A stretch of DNA of 39,139 nucleotides from an uncultured Bacteroidales bacterium (GTDB lineage: Bacteria > Bacteroidota > Bacteroidia > Bacteroidales > Paludibacteraceae): the NCBI GenBank assembly GCA_902799555.1, contig CADCBB010000016.1, positions 1 through 39,139 of the forward strand. The letters are read 5' to 3'. Position 1 is the first letter of the stretch, and each line of letters opens with the position of its first letter. Positions 23,063 to 39,139 of the stretch are shown here, piece after piece. Made by a program: the position numbers and the translations under genes. The notes beneath the pieces were generated by a model. It was not told the origin of the DNA. It saw only the letters and a program-made list of their open reading frames with translations, and did no database searches.

Positions 23063-23433
23063 TTCTCTTTCCCCCAAATAAGGTGTTCGCTCCGCTCACG
23101 GCTGTGTTGATTATATTTGTCGGTTGAGCTGTTCATTTTCGTTACGCGGTATGGCAAAAACGATGTCTGCCAATTCTTGGCATACCTCTATTATCCGAGA
23201 GAGACTTCTCGAATTACTCTTGCATCATTGCATTACCCACTTTCCCGTATGCCTCTGGGGTGCCTGTGCCCGAAGATGTCTGTGGCGACATCGCCTTTGC
23301 CGAAGTCTGTAGTCCTTGCGCGCGGGGCTGCCCCCACCGTGACCCTGCTATCCGTACGGACGCCCGAATTTCTTTTGTGCTCCTTATATGACCTTGCGCG
23401 ATCTGAGTCTCTTTCTTGCCCTGTCCCCACGCA
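23063..23433 (-). repeat. Right terminal repeat of island 1: inverted degraded copy of its left end
   Basis: Its reverse complement aligns throughout to 1-347: upstream codons (AAGAAATTCGGGCGTCCG against AAGAAACTCGGCCGTCCG), the stop region (ATGCAAGAGTAATTC), the sequence after the stop (TCTCTCTCGGATAAT) and the outer CTCAACCGACAAATAT. Many 1-3 base indels break the reading frame, so it is not a working mcm end. It meets the intact second copy at the shared bases CGCA (23430-23433). Confidence 0.85.
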
Positions 23434-23572
23434 GGACTACGACGTCTTAGCCGCAAGGGCACGATTAACTTCGTTTTTCCTCTACAAAGCCGGCGTTGCC
23501 GCCATCTTCGGCCCCGGCACCCCGGTTGCCTACTCCGCTAAAGTGGTAATGCAACTTTTGATGCAAGAATAA
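23430..23572 (+). pseudogene. Second mcm 3' end (displaced or spare), with 33-base insertion
   Basis: CGCAGGACTACGAC (23430-23443), a 33-base in-frame insertion (23444-23476), then TTCCTCTACAAAGCC to the stop at 23570-23572. From 23477 on the encoded FLYKAG...LLMQE is identical to the real mcm end over 31 residues, while the DNA differs only at synonymous positions (for example Q-L-L as CAA CTT TTG instead of CAA TTA TTG). It therefore descends from a gene end that was under selection, and it is not a fresh duplicate. Without the 5' part of mcm it has no known product. Its own terminator follows. Confidence 0.85.
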
Positions 23573-23576
23573 TTTT

Positions 23577-23593
23577 CTTGTTTTTGCAAGCAA
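23577..23593 (+). repeat. Left end of island 2, 17-bp block shared with its right end
   Basis: CTTGTTTTTGCAAGCAA occurs here and inverted at 38728-38744, in both places just behind the mcm stop position. It ties this end to the right end of island 2, not to either end of island 1. Confidence 0.8.
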
Positions 23594-23595
23594 TG

Positions 23596-23628
23596 AAAGA
23601 GACGGTCTCATATTGATTCCGTCTCTTT
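23596..23628 (+). terminator. Terminator behind the second mcm 3' end
   Basis: AAAGAGACGG (23596-23605) pairs perfectly with CCGTCTCTTT (23619-23628), followed by ATTGTG. The inverted island 2 end keeps a different hairpin (GGAGG/CCTCC) at this place. Confidence 0.8.
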
Positions 23629-24116
23629 ATTGTGCGACTACTGCCACGCTCAAATGAGTATCCCCCAAGAGAGTTTCCATATTCGCTTACTCTCAATTTT
23701 TCTTGGTCGCTTCGCTCCAAAAGGGGGGATAAAAATATGTCCTCTTCTATTTTCCATTCTTCTTCTCATTCACACCGCTCAATTTACCCGTTTGTTACGC
23801 TCTAAACGTATAGGGTTGCTATACCCTTGCTATACCCCTGCGCTTACTTTGTTTATTGTCGCGGCATTCAATGCCGCATTAGTTTCGTTTCTTGTCCCGC
23901 ATACTATGTGGCTCTTCTTTGTATTCCGCCGATTGGCAATCGGCATAGACGTTTGTTGTTTACACGGGATACGATCCCGTATGTGTAACCATTAAGGGGG
24001 ATTCTATCAGGATACCGGAATTCCGCTGTACCTCGATACCGTTTTTGTTCGCTCCTGTGCCTCTTCTTCGAATTAAGTCGGCTAATTGCCGACACTTAGC
24101 CGCTATTTCCCTTTAA
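23629..24116. other. Gene-free stretch with several short palindromes
   Basis: It holds GTCGCTTCGCTCC (23706), matching the motif behind the first mcm end, then GCGGCATT/AATGCCGC (about 23869), CCGATTGGCAATCGG (about 23929), ACGGGATACGATCCCGT (about 23968) and GTCGGCTAATTGCCGAC (about 24077). No open frame here looks coding. It appears to be decayed mobile-element or intergenic repeat sequence. Confidence 0.5.
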
Positions 24117-24153
24117 TTTCCCTGCAAAATCCACTTTCTCCGCACTTTCTCGC
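24117..24153 (+). repeat. Direct repeat flanking the DRT3 cassette, left copy
   Basis: 37 bases beginning TTTCCCTGCAAAAT and ending CGCACTTTCTCGC. It matches 28009-28045 at 35 of 37 positions. In both places a further 31 bases separate the repeat from TAATTTTGC. Confidence 0.85.
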
Positions 24154-24160
24154 TCATTTT

Positions 24161-24192
24161 CTTGCATATCTCGAAAAAAAGTAGTAATTTTG
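24161..24192 (+). promoter_or_regulatory. Promoter of the DRT3 operon
   Basis: TTGCATATCTCGAAAAAAAG then TAATTTTG (24185-24192), matching TAnnTTTG. It closely resembles the hsdM and giant-gene promoters (TTGCATATGTCGAAAAAAAA, TAACTTTG). The start codon is 38 bases on. Confidence 0.8.
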
Positions 24193-24229
24193 CAAGCGAA
24201 AATGTATGGTATAAATAACTATTAGGTAT

Positions 24230-25651
24230 ATGTTGGATCAATCTTTTTCTGCAAAAAATTTGGAGATTATATTTAATCTGTCTAACCGTAAAGGGCAGAT
24301 TAAATTATCCGATATGCCTGATGAATACCAAAATGTTGTAGATAAATTAAAAGAAACTAAAAAACAGAGACTTGACATTATCAAAAAGAAGCGAAGCAAT
24401 TGGACCAAGGATGATAGTCAAAGTTTTAATTTATTAACCGATACGATTAATGAGTTACAAGAGAAGAAGCAGAAATGTTTATGTGAATATTTGACAGGAA
24501 TTGCCACTAAAATAAATAGTGCGCAATTTAAGTTTCAGTTGGAAAAGCATGTAGACATATATTCCGGTAAGGATGTTTATCAAGTAAAAGATGATGATAG
24601 CAAAAATGCGTACTATGCAATTAAACAATTGCAACATAATATTCAAAGGACATTTAAAGTACAGCAAGCCAATAGGCATGCCATTTTAACGAATATCAAA
24701 ATACTATTAAACACGAAATTACCACTATATATCATCCGGTCAGATATCTCTGAATTTTATGAGTCTATTCCACAAAAGCGATTGTTAGAATGCATATCTG
24801 ATAATACATTATTAAGTTCACGGTCAGTGTCTTACATAAAAGGTATCTTGAATGAGTATGATATTGCGACTAAACAAAATTTTAATACGGGGAAAGGTAT
24901 TCCACGAGGTGTTGCTATAAGTCCGTTATTAAGCGAAATATATATGAGAGATGTCGATTCTCAAATAACGGAACGACAAGAAGTTATCTTTTACGCTCGA
25001 TATGTTGACGATATATTTATAGTTTTAACTTCATTAAAAGGAGAAACCTTAGATGGATATTATAATAATCTTAAACAATTATTTAATAACTATGAATTAA
25101 CCCTACATGAAATAGGTGACAAATGCAAACTTATTGATTTATTTCCTGAGGGAAAAACTACAATAGAATCGTTAACTTATCTAGGTTATAAATTATCCAT
25201 TAAAAAGAAAGGGCGAGATATTATTACATCATTTAGTCTATCAGACAATAAGAAACAAAAAATTAAAGATAGAATAGATAGTATTTTCTCATATTTTGAA
25301 CAACAAAGTAAATACAATGTTAAACTGGCTCGAAAGTTCTTATTTGATGCGTTAAAATTTATTGCGGGTAATAATCGTCTTAAAGGAGCAAAATCTGGAA
25401 TAAAGATAGGAGTGTATTATAATAATGATTTATTGGATAATTTAGAAGAATTAGATGCACTCACAACGTATTTACATGATAAGGAGATTAATCCATCTCA
25501 AGACAAATTCAAAACAGAAGAAGAACGAGCCAATTATATTAAGCACATAAAAAAGGCGATTCACAAAATTGATTTTAAAGAAAATTGGCTCAATAAAAAG
25601 ATGTACTCGTTAACTTCTGAGACGATAATAGAGATACAGAATATACTATGA
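24230..25651 (+). CDS. drt3a: Antiviral reverse transcriptase Drt3a (DRT type 3, UG3 group)
   Basis: A 473-aa reverse transcriptase. The fingers/palm show YIIRSDISEFYESIP (about 165-180, first catalytic Asp), GIPRGVAISPLLSEIYM (about 223-239) and FYARYVDDIFIVL (about 254-266, catalytic YVDD). The N-terminal 110 residues are helical and highly charged; the C-terminal 150 form a helical thumb/accessory region. There is no maturase or endonuclease domain, so it is not a group II intron RT. A second, divergent RT follows with a 4-base overlap; this pairing defines type 3 defence-associated RT systems. From general knowledge of the family, Drt3a copies a short repeat in a partner ncRNA into DNA during phage defence. 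GC content is far lower than in the neighbouring island genes, pointing to separate acquisition. Confidence 0.9.
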   Translation: MLDQSFSAKNLEIIFNLSNRKGQIKLSDMPDEYQNVVDKLKETKKQRLDIIKKKRSNWTKDDSQSFNLLTDTINELQEKKQKCLCEYLTGIATKINSAQFKFQLEKHVDIYSGKDVYQVKDDDSKNAYYAIKQLQHNIQRTFKVQQANRHAILTNIKILLNTKLPLYIIRSDISEFYESIPQKRLLECISDNTLLSSRSVSYIKGILNEYDIATKQNFNTGKGIPRGVAISPLLSEIYMRDVDSQITERQEVIFYARYVDDIFIVLTSLKGETLDGYYNNLKQLFNNYELTLHEIGDKCKLIDLFPEGKTTIESLTYLGYKLSIKKKGRDIITSFSLSDNKKQKIKDRIDSIFSYFEQQSKYNVKLARKFLFDALKFIAGNNRLKGAKSGIKIGVYYNNDLLDNLEELDALTTYLHDKEINPSQDKFKTEEERANYIKHIKKAIHKIDFKENWLNKKMYSLTSETIIEIQNIL

Positions 25652-27876
25652 GTAAGAGACGGAAGATAAAATTGAGATATAAGAAAGAGCGAGTTCTCTT
25701 CTCTGATGTACTTCCATACGAAGTACCACTGATTTTCTCAAATCGGTATTTCTATCGCTTTCTTGTGCGAAATCAAATAGCATTAGATACAGATGGTCAT
25801 TTGACATGGAAAGATAATATCAGTAAAGGAGCAAAAGATATTATTTCATTCTTGTTTGGTGATGATTTGAATTGCCAGCACTTTCCACAAACGATACCAT
25901 TCACATACAAGATTTTACATAAACCGAATAAATATCGGGAACTTTCTATTATCCACCCGGCTAATCAAATAGAAATGGTTAGTTTCTATGAGAAATATAA
26001 GAACCTGATTTTATATTATTGCAATCAAGATAGATTCTCACTTCGTCATCCGAATAAAGTGGCGTGTTATTTTTACTATAAAGATAGATTACATCATATA
26101 TTATTAGGGCGCAAGACAGACAAGTTGGAGATGTATTTTAACGAATATGAAAATCTTAGAACATATTTTAGTTATGAACATTATACAAATATATATAAGT
26201 TTTACGAGAGTTACAAATACCAAAGAGCAGAAAAGAAGTTCCAGAAATTAGTTAAGTTTGACATCCAGAGTTGTTTTGATAGTATATATACACATTCTAT
26301 TGCATGGGCTTTAAATGGGGGTAAAGATGTTTATAAAGAACATTTTAAATCCGAAGATAATACTATGGGGTATTTATGGGATAAGATTATGCAAAGAATG
26401 AATTATAATGAAACAAACGGTATTGTAATTGGACCCGAATTTTCCAGAATTTTTGCAGAAGTTATATTACAACAAATAGATAGCAAGGTTCAATCTAAAT
26501 TGCTATCTAAAGGTATGGTTAATAATGTTGATTACCAATGCTTCCGATATGTCGATGATTATTTTTTCTTTTACAATAACGATAACGTGAAAGATGAAGC
26601 ATTAGTTCTATTTATCAATGAGCTGAAAACCTATAAGTTAACAATCAGTAATGAGAAAACCAAATATTATGAAAGACCGTTTATTACAGACATTACGCGT
26701 GCAAAAATAGAAATTGACAAATTAATTGATACTCTCCTCTCGTACAATAAAACAGATAAAAAAGATTTGCCTTGGCAAGAAATGGAGTCGGATGATAATT
26801 ATAACGATATTGAGTTATATCAAGAAGAATCATCTGTAGACGGAGGCACAGAACAAGAATTGTTAAATGCAGCAATATCGAATCAAGATAGTTGGTTCCT
26901 AAAATCTACTGAGTTTAACAAACAATTAAAAGCTTTGCTAGTTACTTATCAAGTAGAAAGCAAAGATGTATATAATTATGCACTAGCTCGAATCGCACGA
27001 AAAATTGAAACAGGTTTAAAGAAATTTGATGGCGTTTTTAAAAGATTATCATTAGCTTTAAATGATGATTCAATAGATGAAGAAACAAAGATTGAATGTC
27101 AAAAGACTAAAGAGCGTATGGAAAATATGCTATGTAAATTTTTGATTGAAGCTATTGATTCTGTGTTTTTTATGCATTCAAATTGTCGGAGAGTAAATAC
27201 AACGCTGAAAATTGTAAGTATTTTAAACTTAATTATTATTACTCTTGACAATGATTATGTTATCAAGAATGGATCTACGCAAATTTCTATACCTAGATTC
27301 TCAAATCAGATGAGAGAACGAGTATTCAAGAAAATCCAAGATGAAATTTCGTTGGTATTTCAAACTTCTCAAATGGACGAAAATGTACAACTTGAGACAT
27401 TGTATTTCTTAATCACATTAAAATCAATGAGAAGCAAATATTACATTAAACCAGTGCAATTACAGAAGTACCTACGACTAAAATTGGATGAAAAAGGTAA
27501 ATACAAAACTATTTGTCCACTAAATTCGTTGGTGATAATTGTTTTATTGTATTTTATGGGAGATATTGAGGCCTATCGTCCGATTCAACATGCCATAATA
27601 GCTTACATTCGAGAAAAGATAAATTTAGTGCCCAAGGAATTACGTAAGAAGCAGGCAGAATTAGTTATATTAACTTTAGACATAATTACCTGTCCTTTTA
27701 TAACTGATGACTACAAACAAAGAATCTGTTCTCCAATGGGCATTGAACCCAAAAACTTTAGAGAAATTACAGATTATTTAAATAGAAGCAAACAGAAGTA
27801 TTTCTTTACTAAATGGAATAAAGTTGATTTGACAAAGGAACTAAATGCGAAAATCTCGCAAGAGGTTTACGCATAA
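25648..27876 (+). CDS. drt3b: Antiviral reverse transcriptase Drt3b (DRT type 3, UG8 group)
   Basis: A 742-aa second reverse transcriptase of the pair. Motifs: VKFDIQSCFDSIYTHSI (about 202-218), NGIVIGPEFSRIFAEVIL (about 257-274, replacing the usual PRG-type primer-grip context) and CFRYVDDYFFFY (about 298-309, catalytic YVDD). A long helical C-terminal half (about 340-742) has no motif I can name and is typical of this group. The ATG overlaps the drt3a stop (ATGA), so expression is coupled. The candidate ncRNA starts about 28 bases after its stop. Both RT active sites look intact. In described DRT3 systems both subunits are needed and make complementary strands of repetitive DNA; whether this homologue does so is untested. 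Confidence 0.9.
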   Translation: MSKRRKIKLRYKKERVLFSDVLPYEVPLIFSNRYFYRFLVRNQIALDTDGHLTWKDNISKGAKDIISFLFGDDLNCQHFPQTIPFTYKILHKPNKYRELSIIHPANQIEMVSFYEKYKNLILYYCNQDRFSLRHPNKVACYFYYKDRLHHILLGRKTDKLEMYFNEYENLRTYFSYEHYTNIYKFYESYKYQRAEKKFQKLVKFDIQSCFDSIYTHSIAWALNGGKDVYKEHFKSEDNTMGYLWDKIMQRMNYNETNGIVIGPEFSRIFAEVILQQIDSKVQSKLLSKGMVNNVDYQCFRYVDDYFFFYNNDNVKDEALVLFINELKTYKLTISNEKTKYYERPFITDITRAKIEIDKLIDTLLSYNKTDKKDLPWQEMESDDNYNDIELYQEESSVDGGTEQELLNAAISNQDSWFLKSTEFNKQLKALLVTYQVESKDVYNYALARIARKIETGLKKFDGVFKRLSLALNDDSIDEETKIECQKTKERMENMLCKFLIEAIDSVFFMHSNCRRVNTTLKIVSILNLIIITLDNDYVIKNGSTQISIPRFSNQMRERVFKKIQDEISLVFQTSQMDENVQLETLYFLITLKSMRSKYYIKPVQLQKYLRLKLDEKGKYKTICPLNSLVIIVLLYFMGDIEAYRPIQHAIIAYIREKINLVPKELRKKQAELVILTLDIITCPFITDDYKQRICSPMGIEPKNFREITDYLNRSKQKYFFTKWNKVDLTKELNAKISQEVYA

Positions 27877-27897
27877 TTTAAGAAAGTTTCTTAAATT
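27875..27897 (+). other. Perfect palindrome at the drt3b stop
   Basis: AATTTAAGAAA (27875-27885), one base, then TTTCTTAAATT (27887-27897). The left arm includes the last two bases of the stop codon. It may be a 3' stem of the mRNA or a processing signal separating mRNA and ncRNA. Confidence 0.6.
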
Positions 27898-27899
27898 TG
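27892..27899 (+). promoter_or_regulatory. Possible -7 element of the DRT3 ncRNA
   Basis: TAAATTTG fits TAnnTTTG, and the expected start site falls at about 27904-27907, exactly where the first ncRNA stem opens. No good -33 TTTG is visible, so the RNA may instead be cut from the operon transcript. Confidence 0.4.
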
Positions 27900-27903
27900 T
27901 TTA

Positions 27904-28003
27904 GGTGCAGTGCACAAATCACATCAATTTTACACACATAGTGCTGCACTACCGACACGGTTGGTATTTGAAGGGGTTTAGTGATTTGGACCCCTTCTTT
28001 TTT
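27904..28003 (+). ncRNA. Candidate DRT3 template ncRNA with ACACAC loop
   Basis: A stem of GTGCAG-(TG)-CAC (27905-27915) with GTGCTGCAC (27941-27949) closes a 25-base unpaired region carrying ACACACA (27932-27938). A small ACC/GGT hairpin and a strong terminator follow. From general knowledge, DRT3 systems encode an ncRNA in which a short AC-repeat is copied by Drt3a into GT-repeat DNA. Position right behind drt3b, length of about 100 bases, the loop motif and the terminator all fit. Ends are inferred. Confidence 0.7.
27971..28003 (+). terminator. Terminator of the DRT3 ncRNA/operon
   Basis: AAGGGG (27971-27976) pairs with CCCCTT (27991-27996), then CTTTTTT. A classical intrinsic terminator. 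Confidence 0.88.
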
Positions 28004-28008
28004 CGTAT

Positions 28009-28045
28009 TTTCCCTGCAAAATATACTTTCTCCGCACTTTCTCGC
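28009..28045 (+). repeat. Direct repeat flanking the DRT3 cassette, right copy
   Basis: 35 of 37 positions match 24117-24153; the two differences are adjacent (CC against AT). It sits six bases behind the ncRNA terminator and 31 bases before the next TAATTTTGC. Confidence 0.85.
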
Positions 28046-28055
28046 CCCAAAATTT

Positions 28056-28084
28056 GCCTACGTCAATATTTTTTTGTAATTTTG
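28056..28084 (+). promoter_or_regulatory. Promoter of the MBOAT operon and its leader RNA
   Basis: TTTGCC near 28054 and TAATTTTG (28077-28084), matching TAnnTTTG. Transcription should start near 28090, giving a leader of about 300 bases. Confidence 0.75.
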
Positions 28085-28089
28085 CAGTC

Positions 28090-28350
28090 GATTTTGAAAT
28101 AAGCGCAAAGAGTTGCGCTACAACATTAAATATTAAGCAGACTATTATTTCGCGCAAACCGAAAAGCGTCAGAAACTTACAAGGAATAATTGCACAGAAA
28201 TAATATGTGGCAGCATATCGTATGGATATGCCCTGCCTGTTCGTAATAGATGCTTGCACGTTTGTGTGGGTTTCTTAGAACAGGCAAAGGCTCCTTATTC
28301 TGACGCTGCCTTGGTTGCGCGATAAGAAACTCGCACTTTTCTTATCGCTT
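28090..28350 (+). ncRNA. Highly structured leader or small RNA before the MBOAT operon
   Basis: Nested perfect stems. AGCGCAA/TTGCGCT (28102-28119). An outer stem CGCGCAAACC/GGTTGCGCG (28151-28160 with 28313-28321). AGCGTCAGAA/TTCTGACGCT (28165-28174 with 28298-28307). AAGGA/TCCTT. Inside are two arms, GCATATC/GATATGC (28213-28231) and GCCTGTTC/GAACAGGC (28235-28242 with 28278-28285). A last hairpin GCGATAAGAAA/TTTCTTATCGC (28319-28348) reuses bases of the outer stem, so the two could be alternative folds. This pattern suits a cis-regulatory RNA, or a stable sRNA such as a 6S-like RNA. I cannot match it to a known class. It explains most of the gene-free stretch 28046-28393. Confidence 0.65.
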
Positions 28351-28393
28351 ACGGATTGATAGTATGCGTAACATAAGTTATTACTATCAATCG

Positions 28394-29860
28394 ATGTTAT
28401 TTAACTCTATCGAATTTGCGTTCTTTTTGCCCATCGTGTTCCTTATTTATTGGGCAATCGGGTACGCACACATAAATGACAATCTCAAACTGCGATTGCA
28501 AAACGCGTTTGTTATCCTTGCCAGTTACGTCTTTTACGGCTGGTGGGATTGGCGCTTCTTATTACTCATCGCATTTACCTCGTTTTGTTCTTGGGGGAGC
28601 GGATTGCTTATCGCCAGATCGTCAACTCCCAAAGCAGCGAAAGCATGGACAGCAGCCAACATTGTCCATAATCTCGCTATCCTTGCGGTCTTCAAATACT
28701 ACGATTTCTTTGTACGCGAGTTTGGTCAGTTATTTGGTGTTTCAACGGATAGTCTATTGCTGAAAATCATCCTTCCGGTAGGTATATCGTTCTATACATT
28801 CCAAGCACTCAGTTATTCCATCGATGTGTATCGTAAGAAGATAGAACCCACGCGCGACATCGTTGCCTTCTTTGCGTACGTAGCATTCTTCCCGCAACTT
28901 GTCGCAGGTCCGATTGAGCGTGCAACTAACCTCTTGCCGCAATTCCAAGCCAACCGCAAATTCAATTACGACCAAGCCGTGGATGGAATGCGCCAAATTC
29001 TGTGGGGTTTATTCAAAAAGATAGTAGTAGCCGACAACTGTGCGACTTATGTGGATCAAGTTTGGGCAACCTACGACACCCAAACAGGTAGTACATTGCT
29101 CCTTGCTGCCATACTCTTTACATTCCAGATTTACGGTGACTTCTCCGGCTATTCGGACATTGCCATCGGTACTGCCAAACTCTTTGGTATCAAACTGATG
29201 CGTAACTTCAACAATCCCTATTTCTCGCGTGACATAGCGGAGTTTTGGCGGAAATGGCACATCTCCCTTACAACATGGTTCAGAGATTATGTCTATATCC
29301 CTCTCGGTGGTAGTCGTGTTGGCAAATGGAAAATAGTCCGCAACACTTTCGTCATTTTCTTGCTCTCCGGCTTTTGGCATGGCGCCAACTGGACGTTTAT
29401 AGCTTGGGGCGCGTACCACGCAATCCTCTTCTTGCCACTCATCCTCCTCGGCATGAACCGCAAATACACCAACCAAGTCGCCGAGGGTTGCCTCCTTCCC
29501 ACATGGAAAGAAGCCGTGCAAATCCTTTTCACATTCTTCCTCGCCGTCCTCGGCTGGATTATTTTCCGAGCCGAAACAATCACGCAAGCATGGAATTATA
29601 TCTGCGGAATGATGCAATTTGGTACGTTACGAGCCTGTTACCGCTTCTTCTTACCGAACGAATATATTGTGTACCCGACCAATCTATACATTATAGTAAT
29701 GATTGTTATTGAATGGATACAACGCAATAAGCAACATGGACTTGAGGTCCTAAACGCAAGCAAATACAAATGGATTCGAATAGCTTTCAATTATGTGCTT
29801 GTGTGGATGATTATTCAGAATGCAGGAACAGAACAAACCTTTATTTATTTCCAATTCTAA
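28394..29860 (+). CDS. MBOAT family O-acyltransferase (AlgI/DltB-like)
   Basis: A 488-aa polytopic inner-membrane protein that moves acyl (usually acetyl) groups across the membrane for O-acylation of surface polysaccharide. Start MLFNSIEFAFFLPIVFLIYW is the family's usual N-terminus; the ATG at 28364, ten codons earlier, adds only a polar tail. Family features: FSGYSDIAIGTAKLFG, the NFNNPYFSRDIAEFWRKWHI block, and the catalytic-His motif SGFWHGANWTFIAWG near residue 320. The length is typical and around eleven hydrophobic segments are visible. The next gene starts three bases after the stop and encodes the usual SGNH partner. A structured leader RNA precedes it. Confidence 0.93.
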   Translation: MLFNSIEFAFFLPIVFLIYWAIGYAHINDNLKLRLQNAFVILASYVFYGWWDWRFLLLIAFTSFCSWGSGLLIARSSTPKAAKAWTAANIVHNLAILAVFKYYDFFVREFGQLFGVSTDSLLLKIILPVGISFYTFQALSYSIDVYRKKIEPTRDIVAFFAYVAFFPQLVAGPIERATNLLPQFQANRKFNYDQAVDGMRQILWGLFKKIVVADNCATYVDQVWATYDTQTGSTLLLAAILFTFQIYGDFSGYSDIAIGTAKLFGIKLMRNFNNPYFSRDIAEFWRKWHISLTTWFRDYVYIPLGGSRVGKWKIVRNTFVIFLLSGFWHGANWTFIAWGAYHAILFLPLILLGMNRKYTNQVAEGCLLPTWKEAVQILFTFFLAVLGWIIFRAETITQAWNYICGMMQFGTLRACYRFFLPNEYIVYPTNLYIIVMIVIEWIQRNKQHGLEVLNASKYKWIRIAFNYVLVWMIIQNAGTEQTFIYFQF

Positions 29861-29863
29861 ACT

Positions 29864-30805
29864 ATGAAACGATTCGCAAAAACGATATTTTGCTTTTTCC
29901 TGCCAATATTCTTGGGAGTATTAGCACTTGAAATTGGTATGAGAAGTGTACCGAATGATTATACCTTTAAGAATAAATGGCTAACAGAGAATATAAGTCA
30001 CGTACGTATTTGGACGTTTGGCTCGTCACATGGTCTTTATGGTATAAGTCCACGATATTTCTCTAAACCAGCATTCAACTCTGCACATGTCTCACAACCG
30101 TTGAAATACGACGCTTTTATATTTGATAAATTTATTGGTGGAGCGGATTCTTTGGAATGGATAGTTCTACCTGTCTCGTACTTTACGCTCACGAATAAGA
30201 TGGAAGATGGAGAGGAATGGTGGAGAATAAAGAACTACTGCATATATTACGATTGTCCATACCACCAATGGGAACCAAGATATAATATTGAAGTAGTTGG
30301 AAATCCGCTTTCTTTGTACAAACAAATCAAACGAGTTGGCAGATATTGGATAAAAGGAGTGGACGATAATAGTTGTGATTCTTTGGGTTTAGATCTGGGT
30401 TATTCAAAAGCGCATCGTGGAGAGAATTGGTATATGGATGGTCCACAAAGAGCAAAATACCATACAAAAGACCTTGCCAAATCACAGCCTAATATTAAAG
30501 AGAATATTGGCTACATAGAGTCAATTATAAAGACTTGCGCTGAAAAACAGGTGAAAGTGTTAATAATTACGACACCTGTTTGCAGCACGTATTATGATTG
30601 CGTAGATTCGGCTCAATACGCATTAATGATAGAGACATGTGAAAGTTTTGCTCGCCAATACAATCACGTTCAATACTTGAATCTATTTAAGGATTCCCGA
30701 TTTGTAGAGGATGACTTTCATGATTCAGACCATTTAGCTACTGAAGGAGCAGAAAAGCTCACGAAGATTTTAGATGAGTATATATTAACTATTGAACATA
30801 AATAA
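29864..30805 (+). CDS. SGNH/GDSL-like acyltransferase partner of MBOAT
   Basis: A 313-aa protein with an N-terminal signal anchor (about residues 5-25) and a periplasmic domain. FGSSHGLYG (about 52-60) is the Ser block of the SGNH fold. DSDHLATEGAEKL near residues 286-298 supplies the C-terminal Asp-x-x-His-type pair. Such proteins take acetyl groups delivered by the MBOAT and attach them to glycan. Gene spacing of three bases to the MBOAT gene shows a two-gene operon. The target polysaccharide is not evident here. Composition is more AT-rich than the MBOAT gene. Confidence 0.85.
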   Translation: MKRFAKTIFCFFLPIFLGVLALEIGMRSVPNDYTFKNKWLTENISHVRIWTFGSSHGLYGISPRYFSKPAFNSAHVSQPLKYDAFIFDKFIGGADSLEWIVLPVSYFTLTNKMEDGEEWWRIKNYCIYYDCPYHQWEPRYNIEVVGNPLSLYKQIKRVGRYWIKGVDDNSCDSLGLDLGYSKAHRGENWYMDGPQRAKYHTKDLAKSQPNIKENIGYIESIIKTCAEKQVKVLIITTPVCSTYYDCVDSAQYALMIETCESFARQYNHVQYLNLFKDSRFVEDDFHDSDHLATEGAEKLTKILDEYILTIEHK

Positions 30806-30811
30806 CCTCCT

Positions 30812-31416: not shown

Positions 31417-31438
31417 CAGCGTTTTTTAAGATGAGTAT

Positions 31439-32773: not shown

Positions 32774-32819
32774 ATTTGGGTAAAAGTCATCTCTACTATT
32801 GAATAATTGCATAGAATTT

Positions 32820-33980
32820 ATGGCAACTGACAATAAGGACTTTTTTAAGACGCAAACAGATTCTTCGAGAGTAAAAGCGACTATCATCTCGGAGTATTTC
32901 CCTTCCTATTGTAAGATAATAGGTAGGCATCATGTGCCCAAGAAATTCGGGTACTATGATATGTTTGCCGGTCCCGGTATGTACGAAGATGGCGGTTTGT
33001 CAACTCCATTGCTTGTGGCTGGTAAGTGTGCCAATGATTCATATTTGAAAGATAGAGTTTGGATGGTGTTTAATGACATGATGTATGGCGACACGCTCAA
33101 AGAAAATTTTGAGGCCAACTATCCGGACGGGACATTCCGCTATAAACCATTCTTTGCCAACCGAGTCTTTGGTGAATGGCCGAAGATAGATGAGTTCTTA
33201 ACAAAAAACACCATGGAGGGATTCTATAACGAATGTCCTTCATTGCTATTTATAGACCCGTTTGGATACAAACATATTAACACAAGTGTCCTTGCTAAAT
33301 TTCTAACTTATTGGGGGAATGAAGTATTTATCTTCGTGAACACTAAGCGTTTAAATGCAGCGTTTGAGAATGAAATGTTTCAGGATGATCTAAAGACTAT
33401 ATTCCCATTAACATATCAAACTATAAAAGACAACAAGAAATTAATATCTGGACCGGTTGAGGAACGCCATAAGTTTATTATTGATAACTTAGGCGCAGAA
33501 TTCCAAAAGGTATTAAATGGTAGAGTATTTTTTTCTGCATTTCTTTTTAGAGAAGAGGAACAACCAACTCCAAGCCATTATTTGCTTCATATCACGAAAG
33601 GAGCAAAAGGATTTGATTTAATTAAGCAAGTATATAGCAGGTTTGCTAATGTTGAACGCTCGTTTACTACCGGCGATTATGTTACGTACACGTTTGATCC
33701 GCAAACGGTCATTCATGCAGATATGTTTGGCGATGACTTTAAACAAGAGAATCTGGATGCGCTTAAAGCAGAGTTATTAAAATGCTTTGCAGGAAGGACC
33801 CTTGACGCCGAATCTTTGTTTAGCCAGCATCAAACGGAGAATATGTTTGCTCGTACACACTATACTGCTGCGTTGCGTCAACTATACAATGAGGAAAAGA
33901 TCACGGCAGTGATAAAAGACAACAAGAATCACAGAGAAAAAGTGCTTCTTATTAAAGAATGTATTATTACTTTTAAATAG
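32820..33980 (+). CDS. tcmP: Three-Cys-motif partner protein TcmP
   Basis: A 386-aa protein (MATDNKDFFKT). An upstream TTG frame to 32799 is possible but has no reason to be used. Family hallmarks: the early RVKATIISEYFPSYCKII and KFGYYDMFAGPGMYEDG, where DMFAGPG is a methylase-like first strand and loop, and SLLFIDPFGYKHI further on, typical of TcmP. From established knowledge, TcmP genes travel with a three-Cys-motif protein of the Gp37/Gp68 group (DUF5131), which is exactly the next gene, one base after the stop. The biochemical role is unknown; a Rossmann-like fold acting on nucleic acid is plausible, and the setting suggests defence or modification. Confidence 0.85.
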   Translation: MATDNKDFFKTQTDSSRVKATIISEYFPSYCKIIGRHHVPKKFGYYDMFAGPGMYEDGGLSTPLLVAGKCANDSYLKDRVWMVFNDMMYGDTLKENFEANYPDGTFRYKPFFANRVFGEWPKIDEFLTKNTMEGFYNECPSLLFIDPFGYKHINTSVLAKFLTYWGNEVFIFVNTKRLNAAFENEMFQDDLKTIFPLTYQTIKDNKKLISGPVEERHKFIIDNLGAEFQKVLNGRVFFSAFLFREEEQPTPSHYLLHITKGAKGFDLIKQVYSRFANVERSFTTGDYVTYTFDPQTVIHADMFGDDFKQENLDALKAELLKCFAGRTLDAESLFSQHQTENMFARTHYTAALRQLYNEEKITAVIKDNKNHREKVLLIKECIITFK

Positions 33981-33981
33981 C

Positions 33982-34716
33982 ATGGCAGAGACAAAAATTG
34001 AATGGACAGATAAGACGTGGAATCCAGTAACCGGCTGCACCAAGAAGTCGGAAGGATGTTTGCATTGCTATGCTGAAGTCATGGCTCGCAGATTAAAGGG
34101 CATGGGACAAGTCAAGTACAAGAATGCCTTTAAGTTAACAGTCCATCCCGAATCATTAGACGAACCGAAGACTTGGACAAAACCGCATAACATATTTGTG
34201 TGCTCAATGGGCGATCTGTTCCATGAGAAAGTGCCGTTTGACTTCATCGACCGCGTGATGGAAACCATTGCGGCAACACCGCAACATCGGTATCAGATCT
34301 TGACCAAACGTCCGGAACGCTTGCACGAGTACTTTACTACACATGACGTTCCGCAGAATGTGTGGTTGGGAACTACGGTGGAGTCGCAACGAAACAAATT
34401 CAGAATCGACTATCTGCGTGGATTGCATGCACCGGTTCGATTCCTGAGTTGCGAACCGCTGATAGAAGATTTAGGCGAGATGGATTTGACCGGCATCAAT
34501 TGGGTGATTGTCGGTGGCGAAAGCGGAATGCAAGCGCGTCCGATCAAAGAAGATTGGATCATTCGTATCAAGGACCAGTGCGAGCAACATCATATCGCAT
34601 TCTTCTTCAAGCAATGGGGAACTTGGGGACAGGACGGGATTAAACGTAACAAACACGCTAATGGAAAACTGCTACAAGGCGAAATAATACAACAAATGCC
34701 AACTGAATGGTCATAA
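33982..34716 (+). CDS. DUF5131 three-Cys-motif protein (phage Gp37/Gp68 family)
   Basis: A 244-aa protein. IEWTDKTWNPVTGC, then C19-x6-C26-x2-C29 (GCTKKSEGCLHCYA), the family's metal or Fe-S ligand set, reminiscent of radical-SAM proteins but with different spacing. Other conserved blocks: FVCSMGDLFHE, YQILTKRPERL, VWLGTTVESQ, PVRFLSCEPLIEDL, WVIVGGESG, and C-terminal FFFKQWGTWG. All blocks are intact. It forms a translationally tight operon with tcmP before it and a hypothetical gene after it (10-base overlap). A modification enzyme acting on nucleic acid or nucleotides is a reasonable guess only. Confidence 0.9.
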   Translation: MAETKIEWTDKTWNPVTGCTKKSEGCLHCYAEVMARRLKGMGQVKYKNAFKLTVHPESLDEPKTWTKPHNIFVCSMGDLFHEKVPFDFIDRVMETIAATPQHRYQILTKRPERLHEYFTTHDVPQNVWLGTTVESQRNKFRIDYLRGLHAPVRFLSCEPLIEDLGEMDLTGINWVIVGGESGMQARPIKEDWIIRIKDQCEQHHIAFFFKQWGTWGQDGIKRNKHANGKLLQGEIIQQMPTEWS

Positions 34717-36245
34717 CCGCAGAACATATTGCTACTACTATCGAGCGTATCGGTACCTTGTGCAATGAATTGAGAGATACCAATTCATCTGCTTTGCCGT
34801 TCGTAGATAGATTGCATGGAGTGATGCTGGCATCCGAGTTGTACGACATAGCCGGTCAGTTAGACGCACAGCGTGAAGAAACATTATCGTCCTATTTTGG
34901 CGAAAACTCGTTGCGCCAGAACTTACAAAATATCGTGCTTATAGAAGATATGCAGCGCGAACTGAGCGATGTTTGCTTCTTTGTCAATGCCGAGAATGCG
35001 GACGCATATGCGCAGAAGATAAAAGATGCGTATTCCTCTAAACAGTTGTTATCGAAGTTGCCGGTAATAGAAGGAGTATGGGGCGCAGATCGCGCCAAAC
35101 CTAATGGCAGATATAAATTCAAAACTGTCTTCAATGCGGCACATGAAGATTTGGCAGAACCACAAAAGTTGGCTACACTATCTGTCGATCCTTCTGATAG
35201 GATATACAACACATCTATCCGTCAGAATCTACTGGAATATCGTTTGGCTCTGAGAGTGAATAATGAGTTGATAGAAAATACGAAGGATGGCTTTGTCTCT
35301 TCTCTATCGCAGATATACAAGATTGTCAATCAGTATTCAGCATGCGATATCATCAACGAACTTCAGAGAGCATTGGAGATGTTACGTGTTGCTCTAATGC
35401 GAGACGCGCAAGATATCCATTTCATAAGGACAGGTAACTTCTCGGAAATACTAACGGACGAGAATAAGCAAGATATAGAGCATTACTATACGGAACTGCC
35501 GTTACACGAGTATTTCGCTATCCGTGAGGAGATACAAGAAGAAATACAAAGTACGATTGATATAGAGATTGATCAATGGCGTATAAAGAAAGGGTACACC
35601 GGTCGTAAGTTGACGCAGCGGGAATATCTTGATTTTCTGAATGAACAAGAAGAAGATGTGCTTGGACAAATGAAAAACGGTTATCCAGAATTATGGGTTA
35701 TACGCGAGCACAGCGGTGGGCTTAATGAGGATGTAACGCCGGAGAATTTTGCGCGTATGTTCTTCCGTAGGAAAGATGTTGATCGTCAGTTCCTTGAACT
35801 ACAATGGAAGCACGAACTGATTTTGGATTTGATTAAGAAAACGGAACAGCAGAAGCCAAGTGTTAAGATTCAGTTCTCTCCGGAAGAAGCCGCTGTTAAA
35901 CAACTGATAGATAATGCCAATTGCTTGGCGCAAGTGCTGTACGAGGAATGGCACGGCAAGAAAGTTCTGACCGGTGTACATCAGCCGGAAGTACTCATAG
36001 AAATCAAACAAAGCGAATTATCCGATTACTTGGATGATATGAAGAAGAACCATTTTGAGGAGCTGTCTCAATGGTGCTATCCTTCTACGGCTAATAACAA
36101 ACAGAACTTTGTTAAGTTTGTGGCAGACTTACGAGACAAGGGATTCTTTGGAAGATTACCGAACAATCTGATTGCACCTCAATTAGCACCGATTATTGGT
36201 CTTGCTGTAGGTACGGCGACCAATTATTTGAGCGTAAAAGACTAA
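34707..36245 (+). CDS. Hypothetical 512-aa third member of the TcmP/DUF5131 operon
   Basis: A soluble, mostly helical acidic protein starting MVITAEHIATTIERIG. The ATG lies ten bases inside the DUF5131 gene, so translation is coupled and the product probably works with that pair. Charged helices around residues 265-330 (EEIQEEIQSTIDIEIDQ) are followed by Trp-rich segments and a hydrophobic C-terminal tail LAPIIGLAVGTATNYL that could insert in or touch a membrane. No family recognised. A strong terminator follows about 30 bases downstream, closing the four-gene operon. Confidence 0.75.
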   Translation: MVITAEHIATTIERIGTLCNELRDTNSSALPFVDRLHGVMLASELYDIAGQLDAQREETLSSYFGENSLRQNLQNIVLIEDMQRELSDVCFFVNAENADAYAQKIKDAYSSKQLLSKLPVIEGVWGADRAKPNGRYKFKTVFNAAHEDLAEPQKLATLSVDPSDRIYNTSIRQNLLEYRLALRVNNELIENTKDGFVSSLSQIYKIVNQYSACDIINELQRALEMLRVALMRDAQDIHFIRTGNFSEILTDENKQDIEHYYTELPLHEYFAIREEIQEEIQSTIDIEIDQWRIKKGYTGRKLTQREYLDFLNEQEEDVLGQMKNGYPELWVIREHSGGLNEDVTPENFARMFFRRKDVDRQFLELQWKHELILDLIKKTEQQKPSVKIQFSPEEAAVKQLIDNANCLAQVLYEEWHGKKVLTGVHQPEVLIEIKQSELSDYLDDMKKNHFEELSQWCYPSTANNKQNFVKFVADLRDKGFFGRLPNNLIAPQLAPIIGLAVGTATNYLSVKD

Positions 36246-36272
36246 TTTTATTCTCTTTTTTGACTCCATATT

Positions 36273-36316
36273 GGATGGATCACATGGATTAAATTCTGTG
36301 ATTCATCCTTTTTCTT
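36273..36316 (+). terminator. Terminator of the ATPase/TcmP operon
   Basis: GGATGGATCAC (36273-36283) pairs with GTGATTCATCC (36298-36308) with one internal mismatch, followed by TTTTTCTTTT. The rest of 36317-36520 is AT-rich with a weak promoter-like AACTTTGC near 36398. Confidence 0.88.
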
Positions 36317-36520
36317 TTTATCTTGCTCTATTTCAGCATGTTACATGAGAGTAAATTAAATTGAATAATATTTGCACAACTTAGAAATTATACAGAACTT
36401 TGCACCAGATTTCAAAAATGAAGTCTGCGTATTTTTATTTATTAACCGCGAGGTTTTGTCTGGCTTGGATATCCATGAATGCGCATTCACTTTCAAAGCC
36501 GAGCATAAATCCTTTCGGTT

Positions 36521-36823
36521 ATGAAAGCAACAACTTTGACATCCGAGCAACTAGGCGAGTTGCGGCAGCATCTTTTATCCATTTATGCAATATTGGGTAT
36601 CCCATCCCCTGTATTGTCTGCTTCCTCTGTAAATTACACTTCTAAGACCAAATCCGAACTGGCAGATTTGGCTGGTACAACAACAAGAACATTCTCTAAA
36701 TGGATACGTCCCTTCCGAGACGAATTGCTACAAATGGGAGTAACAGATAGAACGAAACTCCTACCTCCTCAGGCAGTCCGGCTTGTTTGTGAGCGATTGG
36801 ATATTGAATTGCCCATAGAATAA
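36521..36823 (+). CDS. HTH protein, DUF4248-like (island 2 module)
   Basis: A 100-aa protein. After an N-terminal helix comes the HTH KSELADLAGTTTRTFSKWI, then LPPQAVRLVCERLDI. It shares this order with the smaller protein at 3245-3448. Probably the regulator of the module. It stands apart from the following genes, which have their own promoter at 36905. A leader of about 120 bases precedes it. Confidence 0.65.
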   Translation: MKATTLTSEQLGELRQHLLSIYAILGIPSPVLSASSVNYTSKTKSELADLAGTTTRTFSKWIRPFRDELLQMGVTDRTKLLPPQAVRLVCERLDIELPIE

Positions 36824-36884
36824 AAAAATGACGGAGGAAAGCGAAATAAACAGAACTCTCTTGAGTAAACTGCACGAAACGGAA

Positions 36885-36912
36885 AGTGCGCTTTCAAAAT
36901 GTCGTACCTTTG
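36885..36912 (+). promoter_or_regulatory. Promoter of the island 2 small-gene module
   Basis: TACCTTTG (36905-36912) fits TAnnTTTG. The upstream -33 is weak (CTTTC near 36890). It precedes the operon beginning at 36993. Confidence 0.65.
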
Positions 36913-36992
36913 CACTCGATTTCAAAATCAATCTATTTGTTTAATCCTATTAACCCCTCGCATGGCACGAGACTAAATAACGCCGAAAAGTA

Positions 36993-37304
36993 ATGAGTCA
37001 AATCAAACCTATGGGACTGGTAGAGTCCATGAGCGGTAAAATCTGTGGTCATTCTGACATGTATTTCTTCCGTAAGAATGGGAAAGTATTCAGCGGAAAG
37101 ATCTGTAACCCATCCACCAAAGAACCCACCGCAACCCAACTGGCGGCACAAGCAAAGTTCAAGACCGCACGTACCAACGCCAAAGCTGCTCTCGCAGATG
37201 CAACGCAACGTGCAGCCTACGAAGAAGCCTTCAAAAATCAAAAGAAGTACTATTCCCTCTATGGCTTCGTCTTCGCACAAGAGTATGCCAAATTAGGAGA
37301 CTAA
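36993..37304 (+). CDS. Conserved hypothetical protein of the shared module
   Basis: A 103-aa homologue of the 1792-2094 gene: MSGKICGHSDMYFFRKNGK, then GKICNPSTKEPT and the helical tail ending FVFAQEYAKLGD. Protein identity over the two conserved blocks is high while the DNA is clearly diverged, so the gene has been kept under selection. Soluble, basic, function unknown. First gene of the rightward module operon; the next gene starts five bases after its stop. Confidence 0.72.
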   Translation: MSQIKPMGLVESMSGKICGHSDMYFFRKNGKVFSGKICNPSTKEPTATQLAAQAKFKTARTNAKAALADATQRAAYEEAFKNQKKYYSLYGFVFAQEYAKLGD

Positions 37305-37309
37305 CCGTT

Positions 37310-37495
37310 ATGAGACGTCTTCAAATTCTCCTCGCTACGGCAATGTGCATCTTCGGATGCGCCTTGCTTGTAGCAGGGCTGGCACTCCCGCCCGCAGGAA
37401 CCATTGATTCCTCACTCCTCATAGCCTACGGTGAAACACTCACCTTCGCTGGTTCATTAATTGGAATAGATTATCATTACCGTTATAAAAAATAA
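37310..37495 (+). CDS. Small two-TM membrane protein (holin-like)
   Basis: A 61-aa protein with two hydrophobic segments (about residues 6-27 and 37-54), the motif SSLLIAYGETLTFAGS and a basic end HYRYKK. Counterpart of 1049-1276. It sits four bases before the DUF5675 gene. Holin-like by size and topology only. Confidence 0.65.
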   Translation: MRRLQILLATAMCIFGCALLVAGLALPPAGTIDSSLLIAYGETLTFAGSLIGIDYHYRYKK

Positions 37496-37499
37496 GAAT

Positions 37500-37964
37500 A
37501 TGGTTATCACTTTAATCCGTGACAAGTTCACAGCCGCCGAGACGCTCGGCAAAATGCTTATCAACCGTGTGCCTTTTTGTGGCACGCTTGAACCGCCTAC
37601 CATTCCCAACGCTACGCACCCGAAAGGTTGCATCCCTGTTGGTTGGTACAAACTGCAAGTCACTATGTCACCCAAGTTCGGCAGATTGTTACCCGTCCTC
37701 TGCTACGTACCCGGCTTTGAAGGCGTACGCATCCACGCAGGGAACACACGCGACCATACTGCCGGTTGCATACTGGTAGGCGAACGCTCCGAGTGGTCAC
37801 TCACATTGTCGCAATCCAAAGACACAGAACAAACCCTTGTTGAACAACTCTTAAAAGCGCAGAAAGCCCATGAAGAATTGTATATCAATGTTACCACCGC
37901 TGACCGCTATCCTTCTGAGCGCAATGCTATTGACAGTGTGCCGGACTACACAGACAATGACTGA
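37500..37964 (+). CDS. DUF5675 family protein
   Basis: A 154-aa protein. Core blocks: GCIPVGWYKLQVTMSPKF, LLPVLCYVPGFEGVRIHAGN, and TAGCILVGE. It aligns with 727-1086 but carries a longer C-terminal tail that overlaps the start of the next gene in another frame. His (in RIHAGN) and Cys (in AGCILVG) are placed as in L,D-transpeptidase-like active sites; this is an observation, not a proven activity. The gene order two-TM, DUF5675, spanin-like is the same as in island 1. Confidence 0.78.
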   Translation: MVITLIRDKFTAAETLGKMLINRVPFCGTLEPPTIPNATHPKGCIPVGWYKLQVTMSPKFGRLLPVLCYVPGFEGVRIHAGNTRDHTAGCILVGERSEWSLTLSQSKDTEQTLVEQLLKAQKAHEELYINVTTADRYPSERNAIDSVPDYTDND

Positions 37965-38259
37965 CACCAACACCAACCACGTCTCGAACAACATCCAACG
38001 TGACAGCATCTATCTGCATGATAGTATCTTCGTCCATATACGCGCAGACACGGTCTATCTGGAGAAATGGCACACACGTTGGCGTAACCGCGAGACCGTC
38101 AAGACAGACACTATTACCTTGACGGAAACCAAGACAGAAACGGTCGAGAAACCTTATGTGCCCTCGTTCTACAAGTATTGTGCAGCCTTCGCTATCCTGT
38201 TTGCACTGTACTGGCTTGTCAAACTGGCACTATACATTAAGAAACAATTTTATATATGA
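37888..38259 (+). CDS. Spanin-like envelope protein with C-terminal TM segment
   Basis: A 123-aa protein (start MLPPLTAILLSAMLL; a Met six codons earlier is also in frame). The N-terminal hydrophobic segment ends in LLTVC, a possible lipobox. The middle is the Thr/Asp-rich pattern RDSIYLHDSIFVHIRADTVY with WRNRETVKTDTITLTE, common in Bacteroidetes phage lysis regions. A C-terminal TM helix (about 100-117) and basic end follow. A protein with both a lipid anchor and a TM helix could span the periplasm, as unimolecular spanins do. It overlaps the DUF5675 gene. Confidence 0.65.
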   Translation: MLPPLTAILLSAMLLTVCRTTQTMTDTNTNHVSNNIQRDSIYLHDSIFVHIRADTVYLEKWHTRWRNRETVKTDTITLTETKTETVEKPYVPSFYKYCAAFAILFALYWLVKLALYIKKQFYI

Positions 38260-38310
38260 CAACTTTTAACCCCTCTACGCAGACCGGAGGTAAAGCATGG
38301 TCTGCATTAA

Positions 38311-38817
38311 ATGGCTAAGGTGGTATGGCAATCCGGTATCGAATATGTATCCGGCGCCTTGTGTAAGTGTGGTAAGAAAGAGCCGCACAAGCACGGTCGA
38401 ATGTTGTTGGCTACGCACCGTCGTGCTGCAACCACAAGTGATTCTTGCAACCGTATCTATTTACGTGACGAATCGAACTTTACGAAGTCGAATACTTCAA
38501 ATGCTGTTTGGACTCGTCAGCGATTCAAAGCGGTTGCAGAAATGGTTCACCAGCGTAGTATGGACTTGTCGAAGATTACCCAAGACCAGATGAACTTTAT
38601 TGCACAGCGCAACAACCCACGCGGTATCAAGACGATGCGTGCATATTATTGGCACATCTGCGGTCAGGAGTACGATGCACAACAAGCAGTTCCACAATGG
38701 GAGGTTGCAGAGTGCAGCCTCCTTCCGTTGCTTGCAAAAACAAGTATTATTCTTCTGCATCCTTTCCATTACCCACTTTTCCGTAGCCAACCTTGTGTGC
38801 CCTGTGCCCGAATCTGA
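38311..38817 (+). CDS. Conserved Cys/His small protein, C-terminus altered by the island end
   Basis: A 168-aa frame starting MAKVVWQSGIEYV. The first 127 or so residues match 1341-1760 very closely (GALCKCGKKEPHKHGR, HRRAATTSDSCNRIYLRDE). Past about 38690 the homology stops and the frame runs through the inverted terminal repeat, adding about 40 residues of unrelated sequence before a stop at 38815-38817. The conserved core is under protein-level selection. The altered tail may be tolerated. In island 1 the gene sits mid-operon, here it is last. Confidence 0.7.
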   Translation: MAKVVWQSGIEYVSGALCKCGKKEPHKHGRMLLATHRRAATTSDSCNRIYLRDESNFTKSNTSNAVWTRQRFKAVAEMVHQRSMDLSKITQDQMNFIAQRNNPRGIKTMRAYYWHICGQEYDAQQAVPQWEVAECSLLPLLAKTSIILLHPFHYPLFRSQPCVPCARI

Positions 38818-39139
38818 GCGGCGACACCGCCTTTGCTGAAGTCTGTAGTCCTGCGCGCGGGGCTGCCTCCACCGTGACCCTGCTATCCGTACGGACGCCC
38901 GAGTTTCTTTTGTGCTCCTTCTATGCCCTTGCGCGGGATGAGTCTCTTTTGTGACCTGTCCCCACGCATACACCCGTCCATGTCCATCGTCCCGCCTGTT
39001 TTGTGCTGCCTCTGCTCGAAGTCTGTACCTTTCCCATATACCTCTAAGCCTTTTTATTAAAGCCGCCAAACAAGTTGTCGGCATGACGGCTTAGAGACCC
39101 TGCTACGCTCGGCATAGGATATATACAAGTGCATATCCT
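38690..39139 (-). repeat. Right end of island 2: inverted degraded mcm copy (runs off window)
   Basis: The reverse complement reads AGGTCACAAAAGAGACTC, then AAGAAACTCGGGCGTCCG, CCCCGCGCGCAGGACTAC and a decayed stop region, then the 17-base block CTTGTTTTTGCAAGCAA shared with 23577-23593. Beyond the part matched by window position 1 it continues with CAGACTTCGAGCAGAGGCAG and GGTATATGGGAAAGGT. These fit degraded codons for the preceding part of the B12 domain (roughly the PLFQT-x-EEAA-x-QAV and DVDIVGVS regions of the family). It is therefore longer than the copy at 23063-23433. Frames are broken; no gene is called here. Confidence 0.8.

Follow-up and report, generated by a model that had tools for sequence, protein, structure and literature searches.

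How islands in which no integrase is found come to be stacked behind a metabolic gene, each of them closed by an inverted and degenerate copy of the end of that same gene, is the question raised by the DNA stretch analysed here. This window is the entire contig CADCBB010000016.1 (39,139 nt) of an uncultured Bacteroidales bacterium of the Paludibacteraceae, the source assembly (GCA_902799555.1) comprising 2.34 Mb in 82 contigs at 86% completeness. It starts inside mcm, the gene of methylmalonyl-CoA mutase (the family was named on the homologue in the related genome G188; NCBIfam NF006944, 1030 bits), and holds two islands. In the window and in its relatives the right end (RE) of an island mirrors the gene end and adjoining DNA that form its left end (LE), and when the RE is read in the mcm sense the changes hit mcm pyrimidines almost solely and mostly convert them to purines (Y>R). 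This layout and the Y>R rule hold, and the latter, absent from an earlier note on this DNA, we take for the strongest clue to the mechanism.

Four mcm-like ends are present in the window. End A (1–202, plus strand; recognised by translation and by its match to the Mcm C-terminus) is the 3' end of mcm and the LE of island 1. End B (23113–23433, minus strand) is the right end of island 1, RE1, which mirrors the mcm end in inverted, degenerate form, has a type-1 inner segment and lacks the outer part of a right end. End C (23477–23572, plus strand) is a displaced direct mcm end that is also the LE of island 2; compared with the usual fragment it is short of the first ~190 nt. End D (~38722–39139, minus strand) is RE2, the inverted mcm mirror that closes island 2, with the mirror core TCCCATATACC at 39032–39042. 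Alignment and BLAST bear out the view of the earlier note that both islands open with an mcm 3' end and close in an inverted degenerate copy of it, island 2 occupying 23477–39139. By BLAST inside the window, A and B are 72% identical over 319 nt (E 6e-33), A and D 74.5% over 157 nt (E 2e-14), B and D 85% over 227 nt (E 8e-63) and A and C 92% over 105 nt (E 3e-36). The derived string CGTCCGTACGGATAGCAGGG, described earlier as shared by the two degraded copies, is confined in the window to B and D, and the strings assigned to the island pairs proved equally specific, TCTCTCTCGGATAAT to A and B and CTTGTTTTTGCAAGCAA to C and D. The last 66 Mcm residues, searched against the own assembly, found only A and C. 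Past the stop follow the inner segments, of type 1 at 203–375 (plus strand; a paired box, a terminator-like hairpin and a GTCGCTTCGCTCC box, from comparison of the ends) and of type 2 at 23573–23745 (plus strand); the former is 99–100% identical over 221 nt in G069, G180 and G089. The DNA between RE1 and C is gone, core included, and the displaced fragment carries a 33-nt insert (23444–23476, no strand assigned). Because C, the left mcm end of island 2, doubles as the displaced fragment of island 1, island 1 probably arrived second, with island 2 already present.

The survey of the region behind mcm that had been proposed with the first description finds the same layout in relatives. The RE occurs in at least 19 of the 178 genomes of the genus: a query of 38690–38985 detected it in 16 of them, the own genome included (at least 85% identity over at least 77 nt), and a longer RE query added G018, G083 and G152 through the outer part only, the 19 being rows read as the RE itself while the raw tallies also contain cross-matches to mcm. 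The longer query matched 128 of 358 family genomes, mostly where the mirror or core matches mcm itself, and among the matches listed in family genomes there was no RE outside the genus. The gene order in the relatives is mcm, island, RE and a direct mcm fragment that starts at the same core (TCGATATGGG, located ~297 nt upstream of the mcm stop), mcm standing whole on the left and its displaced 3' fragment on the right. The RE mirror extends from ~150–170 nt past the mcm stop back through the core, where the RE reads TCCCATATACC. In all 15 contigs with the 23-nt RE terminus, GATCGATATGGG and then mcm follow, with a junction at one base, insertions intervening in some of the contigs. The third direct mcm end for which the earlier note wished to extend the contig is thus present after the RE in relatives, and the window stops 30 bp before its expected start, the contig end cutting RE2 30 bp short of the core junction. 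The mirror is present in 11 of the 12 loci with an RE terminus in which it can be judged (L124, L130 and L134 hold too little upstream DNA), L128 being the exception. A virus origin was rejected, the terminus occurring in 0 viral contigs against 15 genome contigs, all of Bacteroidales or Paludibacteraceae metagenome-assembled genomes; 5 of the 15 are titled as from ruminant stomach. A coding function of the RE was likewise dismissed, open stretches varying in place and length among seven REs (by inspection, with no formal coding test).

The strand rule is most easily seen in the coding part of the RE of G069, where 38 of 129 pyrimidines are changed versus 3 of 140 purines (36 Y>R, 1 purine-to-pyrimidine change (R>Y) and 4 transitions); the insertions there number 18 purines and 5 pyrimidines, the deletions 10 purines and 18 pyrimidines. 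The skew was tested over the coding part in seven islands, past the stop in all 11 islands with both ends known, and in four displaced direct copies as a control. Fisher p values for the coding part range from 6e-6 to 3e-13 in the six islands compared over more than 180 nt, and island 2 gives 1.5e-5 over 86 nt. The REs of five relatives hold 4–8 transitions among 41–47 changes, and in their coding parts T>G and C>A number 22–29 against 9–14 for T>A and C>G; past the stop, over five end types, neither class outweighs the other (54 and 56). With one island per type, type 2 being represented by G192 and not by island 2, the 170 nt past the stop hold 110 Y>R, 8 R>Y and 33 transitions. Island 2 itself has 13, 5 and 11 there, and every one of the 11 islands shows more Y>R than R>Y. 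The columns of the RE that match the mirror vary less (39 of 175) than the mismatched ones (42 of 111). When 1.58 Mb of the ~2.2 Mb of G188 were scanned for inverted pairs (spacing 1.5–60 kb, length at least 80 nt, E 1e-4), the mcm pair was the only one of five longer than 124 nt. It alone was skewed (47 Y>R against a single R>Y), unlike the four others, and the scan found no mirrored island at another gene. Adenine-only mutagenesis of the kind performed by diversity-generating retroelements was rejected, since C and T (mcm sense) both change. Regular spacing of the mismatches was also discarded, being indistinguishable from random in four of five islands, with one test at 0.04 in G192.

Ordinary decay, in which one ancient duplication in inverted orientation has been rotting ever since, would account for an RE that is degenerate, apparently non-coding and inherited across species. 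The displaced copies, however, show mostly transitions (four genomes pooled: 65 transitions, 25 Y>R and 16 R>Y among 106 changes), in contrast to the few found in the REs of the five relatives, and the five type-specific mirrored inner ends also speak against it. Ordinary decay is extremely improbable and in fact already contradicted. Whatever the mechanism, the nearly transversion-only, one-strand pattern between the island ends is unlike ordinary mutation.

Five end types are distinguished among the 11 islands of which both ends are known: type 1 comprises island 1, G069 and G180; type 2 island 2, G061, G192 and G191; type 3 G188; type 4 G158 and G133; and type 5 G132. When the inner 130 nt of the RE (reverse complement) are compared with the first 130 nt of the LE past the stop, the local scores are 34–94 within a type versus 11–22 across types. 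The earlier statement that each right end matches its own left end outside the mcm stop therefore describes a real match, but the unit that it concerns is the end type, common to several species, and not the individual island. The possibility left open at the time, that one ancient rearrangement might suffice, fails because the relation between left and right recurs in five end types and in 11 of 11 islands. The end type is a property of the ends, since islands of the same type hold quite different cargo between similar ends; thus G069 and island 1 are 95% identical over the first 350 nt and 97% over the last 154 nt versus 73% in between. In G151 the types stand in tandem, a type-3 RE being followed by a type-1 left end. 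The region paired by type looks limited to the ~170 nt past the stop and the final ~20 nt of mcm. A role of the RE in sequestering the displaced copy was rejected by reasoning, as the type-specific inner part pairs with the LE, which is not what sequestration needs.

With RE and LE on one strand, each Y>R change places a pyrimidine–pyrimidine mismatch on the mcm-sense strand and a purine–purine mismatch on the antisense strand. Modelled 980-nt RE–LE junctions, built by joining the sequences of five of the 11 islands (G188, G069, G158, G132 and G192) and folded with DNA parameters and no shuffled control, gave −286 to −321 kcal/mol for the antisense and −243 to −267 kcal/mol for the sense strand. 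In five of five the mcm-antisense strand is predicted to fold 39–54 kcal/mol better than its complement, because its mismatches are purine–purine while those of the sense strand are pyrimidine–pyrimidine. Purine–purine internal loops are typical of structured RNA, and the ends might accordingly act as RNA, either through an antisense transcript over RE and LE that forms an extended stem interrupted by purine-rich internal loops, or through an RE RNA that regulates mcm; the preference for the same strand in all five junctions, albeit under DNA parameters, fits this. Only a circle, however, would place LE and RE on the same transcript, the small-gene module of the islands is oriented leftward in some types but rightward in others, and no Rfam match was found in the window or in the G188 RE region, which also led us to reject the RE as a known RNA family. 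We hold an RNA function to be quite improbable.

The islands are very probably mobile or exchangeable. A strand-selective folded attachment site served by a recombinase in trans, for which we infer both the strand use and the function, is the explanation that we favour, although we would rate it at somewhat less than an even chance. Islands without an integrase would then sit at one fixed core in mcm. The RE and the LE of one island would adjoin only in a circle or a panhandle, or would anneal while the island is single-stranded, and together they would form an imperfect hairpin with ~400-nt arms, the core near its tip and the inverted mirror core ~130 nt away. The recombinase supplied in trans would read the folded antisense strand, as with integron attC and CTX phage attP, and homologous recombination through the mcm repeats would afterwards reshuffle the cargo and the mcm coding ends; a birth by site-specific recombination and a spread by homologous recombination can both be true. 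A more specific version, which we consider possible but on the unlikely side, makes the attachment site a split quasi-palindrome of the host 3' end and its purine-converted mirror, with one strand recombination-competent and the inner part rebuilt or co-selected with each new LE.

A number of observations weigh against the folded attachment site. The RE is truncated and the core junction lost in 4 of 11 islands (island 1, G061, G191 and G133). Locus L128 has the RE terminus with no detectable mirror and the second junction of G161 also lacks one, apparently through a deletion, so the mirror is not required for persistence. Past the stop, the purine/pyrimidine test taken alone gives p above 0.05 in 6 of 11 islands (island 2, G158, G061, G180, G191 and G133), and one of the four controls, the displaced copy of G132, tends in the same direction (12 Y>R, a single R>Y and 19 transitions; p 1e-3). 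The mismatch spacing looks random, without attC-like boxes, and matched columns at purines and at pyrimidines vary alike (22% and 23%). No convincing dif-like site was found, the best matches to a dif consensus in 1.58 Mb of G188 having 2 mismatches; by eye the core does not look dif-like. The circle and the single-stranded form are inferred only, and no recombinase was found in the islands. The coding ends of mcm are no more alike within a type than across types; an element that invariably carried its own 297 nt along would have led us to expect otherwise. Finally, where the LEs differ, the coding part of the RE agrees with its own LE 470 times and with the other LE 475 times (counts over pairs, which are not independent).

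The last of these points bears on how the mirror arose. The near equality of 470 and 475 indicates that the coding part of the RE is an inherited mirror, and it contradicts a renewal of the RE over its full length from its own LE. The earlier note had suggested a repeated mechanism that copies the left end to the right end, or recombination between the ends. A repeated relation of left and right end is borne out through all five end types; copying as proposed there is not supported, the coding part not being copied from its own LE. An error-prone polymerase or reverse transcriptase that repeatedly copies the LE into the RE by strand switching, and whose failing is purine insertion opposite template pyrimidines, would, in the mcm sense, turn Y into R, insert purines and delete pyrimidines. 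Its attractions are that substitutions, insertions and deletions in the coding part share one direction, that the changed positions look random along the pyrimidines, and that the inner ends differ by type with each of them skewed. Nevertheless the coding mirror is inherited and not recopied, no such enzyme common to the islands was seen (among 37 island proteins searched with Pfam, a reverse transcriptase match occurs in island 2 alone), and we know of no polymerase with a signature of transversion-only errors at both C and T. Biased copying appears to us improbable.

The behaviour of the coding ends gives weight to another explanation, in which the islands are cassettes of homologous recombination: the mcm repeats would act as homology arms, spread would proceed by transformation or Campbell-type crossover with no site-specific enzyme, and the mirror would be a by-product of an inverted duplication of long ago. 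Ten same-type pairs are 95.6–99.6% identical past the stop versus just 87.5–95.8% in the mcm coding end, where cross-type pairs average 91.9% (G089, which could not be placed, is absent from this comparison); three further pairs with G151b are ~82% identical past the stop, the likeness stopping after ~139 nt. As regards the target 3' end as a part of the element, the DNA past the stop is common within a type and the mcm coding end is not, which suggests that recombination inside mcm uncouples the coding end from the island. The unlike cargo between near-identical ends and the lack of a recombinase found in the islands are in line with such cassettes as well. What they leave unexplained is the pairwise mirroring of the inner ends of five types and the Y>R changes. 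The right junction at one base in all 15 loci with the terminus also tells against them, and so does the identity of merely 88–94% between the own LE and the displaced copy within one genome (four genomes). As the sole explanation we regard homologous cassettes as rather unlikely.

A recombinase acting on the folded attachment site would come from outside the islands. The six-frame searches were limited to PF00589, PF00239 and PF01797, and in 10 genomes they placed no tyrosine or serine recombinase (PF00589, PF00239) inside any of the 11 islands; Pfam analysis of 37 proteins from the 11 islands, a part of their 220 open reading frames (ORFs) and accompanied by BLAST clusters, gave no match to an integrase or transposase family. 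The genomes G188 and G180 (95% and 98% complete) have two tyrosine recombinases each, presumably XerC and XerD. A 345-aa protein with the motif MPNHLH is encoded in the islands of G061 (L106:14183–15220) and G132 (L115:13216–14253); it has no Pfam match at E 0.001 and no PF01797 match at either locus. The motif, which we take to be the HUH signature of transposases of the Y1 type associated with repetitive extragenic palindromes, could mean that this HUH-like protein acts on hairpins.

Defence-like genes were recognised in 7 of 11 islands by Pfam and BLAST clusters. In island 1 they form a type I restriction-modification system (HsdR, HsdS and HsdM by Pfam; 7047–12885, minus strand), next to which lies a surface-protein-like gene of 3069 aa (13659–22868, minus strand; Pfam Laminin_G_3). 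Island 2 carries the antiviral reverse transcriptases of DRT3 (Drt3a and Drt3b by NCBIfam and PADLOC; 24230–27876, plus strand), an MBOAT acyltransferase with a DltD-like/DUF1574 protein (28364–30805, plus strand; Pfam, the second protein below the curated cut-off) and a set of candidate defence genes, PDC-S01 with AAA/DUF4143, TcmP, DUF5131 and a 512-aa protein unassigned to a family (31439–36245, plus strand). The PDC-S01/TcmP/DUF5131 set is also found in the islands of G061 and G192, while G191 has type III restriction-modification and AbiEii, G180 two GmrSD and G132 a NACHT-associated iREase2. The remaining four islands hold leucine-rich repeat (G188), HNH (G158), TonB-type (G069) and repeat/ATPase proteins (G133). 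A small-gene module recurs at 727–5124 (minus strand; lysis-like small genes and an HNH-like ORF), at 36521–38694 (plus strand; with DUF5675 at 37500–37964) and in L011–L020, its members being a 'MAKVVWQSGIEYVSG...' protein, a protein with two transmembrane segments, DUF5675 and a spanin-like protein; the lysis and HNH labels, and some of the others, are our own reading of the sequences. One module protein has 21 matches in the assembly, some of them fragments and several located where contigs end, which gives the impression of a phage-lysis-like cassette in multiple copies. A part of this module in forming the ends was rejected, 19 of the 21 matches lying on other contigs. In G024 the insertion behind mcm consists of a lone gene that we read as Fic-like, with a displaced 3' fragment of mcm on its far side (L046, 6469–7762).

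Small insertions are a further feature of these junctions. The 33-bp repeat of 23444–23476 is dispersed, with related copies elsewhere in the genome at C1:97017, C7:110059, C67:1605, C65:5376, C29:7852 and C64:563; three copies lie at gene starts, where it reads about MKNEVNRALVAKK. It occupies the same spot in the displaced mcm fragment of L135, where G191 has a different insert, and 1.58 Mb of G188 contain two copies. Another scattered repeat, which is non-coding and centres on GAAGCGCGACAACTACATTTGTTACG..AGTAACTTAATC, was seen by eye at ~3206–3275 of the window; it is inserted in the REs of G081 and G084, in the second G161 junction and in the displaced copies of G192 and G161. The displaced mcm copies of L126, L128 and L133 share, in the same place, an insertion of ~150–170 bp with terminal inverted repeats (GGAGTATGTTTTTGCTAC..) that resembles a miniature inverted-repeat transposable element.

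Should the folded-site explanation be true, an attachment site would have been made strand-specific over hundreds of bases by purine–purine versus pyrimidine–pyrimidine mismatches, and the accretion of defence cargo behind a metabolic gene with no integrase in the island would be explained. The literature on such islands and sites, as far as our partial coverage of it extends, describes no ends of this kind, which is no proof of their absence. Prophage e14 integrates in icd and restores the gene. Islands at tRNA genes also integrate in a gene and restore it (PMC4383910). The mcm islands share with such elements the fixed target gene, the restored copy on one side and the displaced fragment on the other, and the tandem accretion; a 3' end restored at a fixed core is what we found, with mcm on the left and the fragment from the core on the right. 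They differ in that no element-encoded site-specific integrase was found in the 11 islands, in that their second end mirrors the target in inverted orientation and with a purine skew, and in that the coding end is not carried along with the end type. From transposons with terminal inverted repeats they are set apart by ~400-nt inverted ends and a ~297-nt duplicated target, as opposed to short repeats and a short duplication, and by the lack of a transposase match in the 37 island proteins, notwithstanding the HUH-like ORF of G061 and G132.

Three other systems invite comparison with the proposed folded site. We claim membership in none, because the defining enzymes were either not found or not tested. 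The SEs (strand-biased circularizing integrative elements) of Gammaproteobacteria, with a median size of 15.7 kb and intA, tfp, intB and srap at the left end (PMC10214605), resemble the mcm islands in being integrative, in their similar size and in the strand bias, which in their case concerns circularization; in the mcm islands no tyrosine recombinase was found (tfp and srap were not searched for). An integrative mobile element exploiting Xer (IMEX) of the CTX-phage type has no integrase of its own and two inverted copies of its site 90 nt apart (PMC5357621). The target of the mcm islands is mcm and not dif, and their arms are far longer; as in the IMEX, no integrase of their own is seen, and the inverted core copies, here ~130 nt apart, could pair on one strand. 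Integron attC sites are strand-selective imperfect hairpins served by a recombinase in trans, with cassette arrays behind one site (PMC2727003). The mcm islands, of 9–23 kb, differ from integron cassettes in their ~400-nt arms derived from the target gene's own end, with no R/L boxes seen and no IntI shown, and the would-be likeness lies in a site folded from one strand, a recombinase in trans, arrays, and cargo swapped behind fixed ends.

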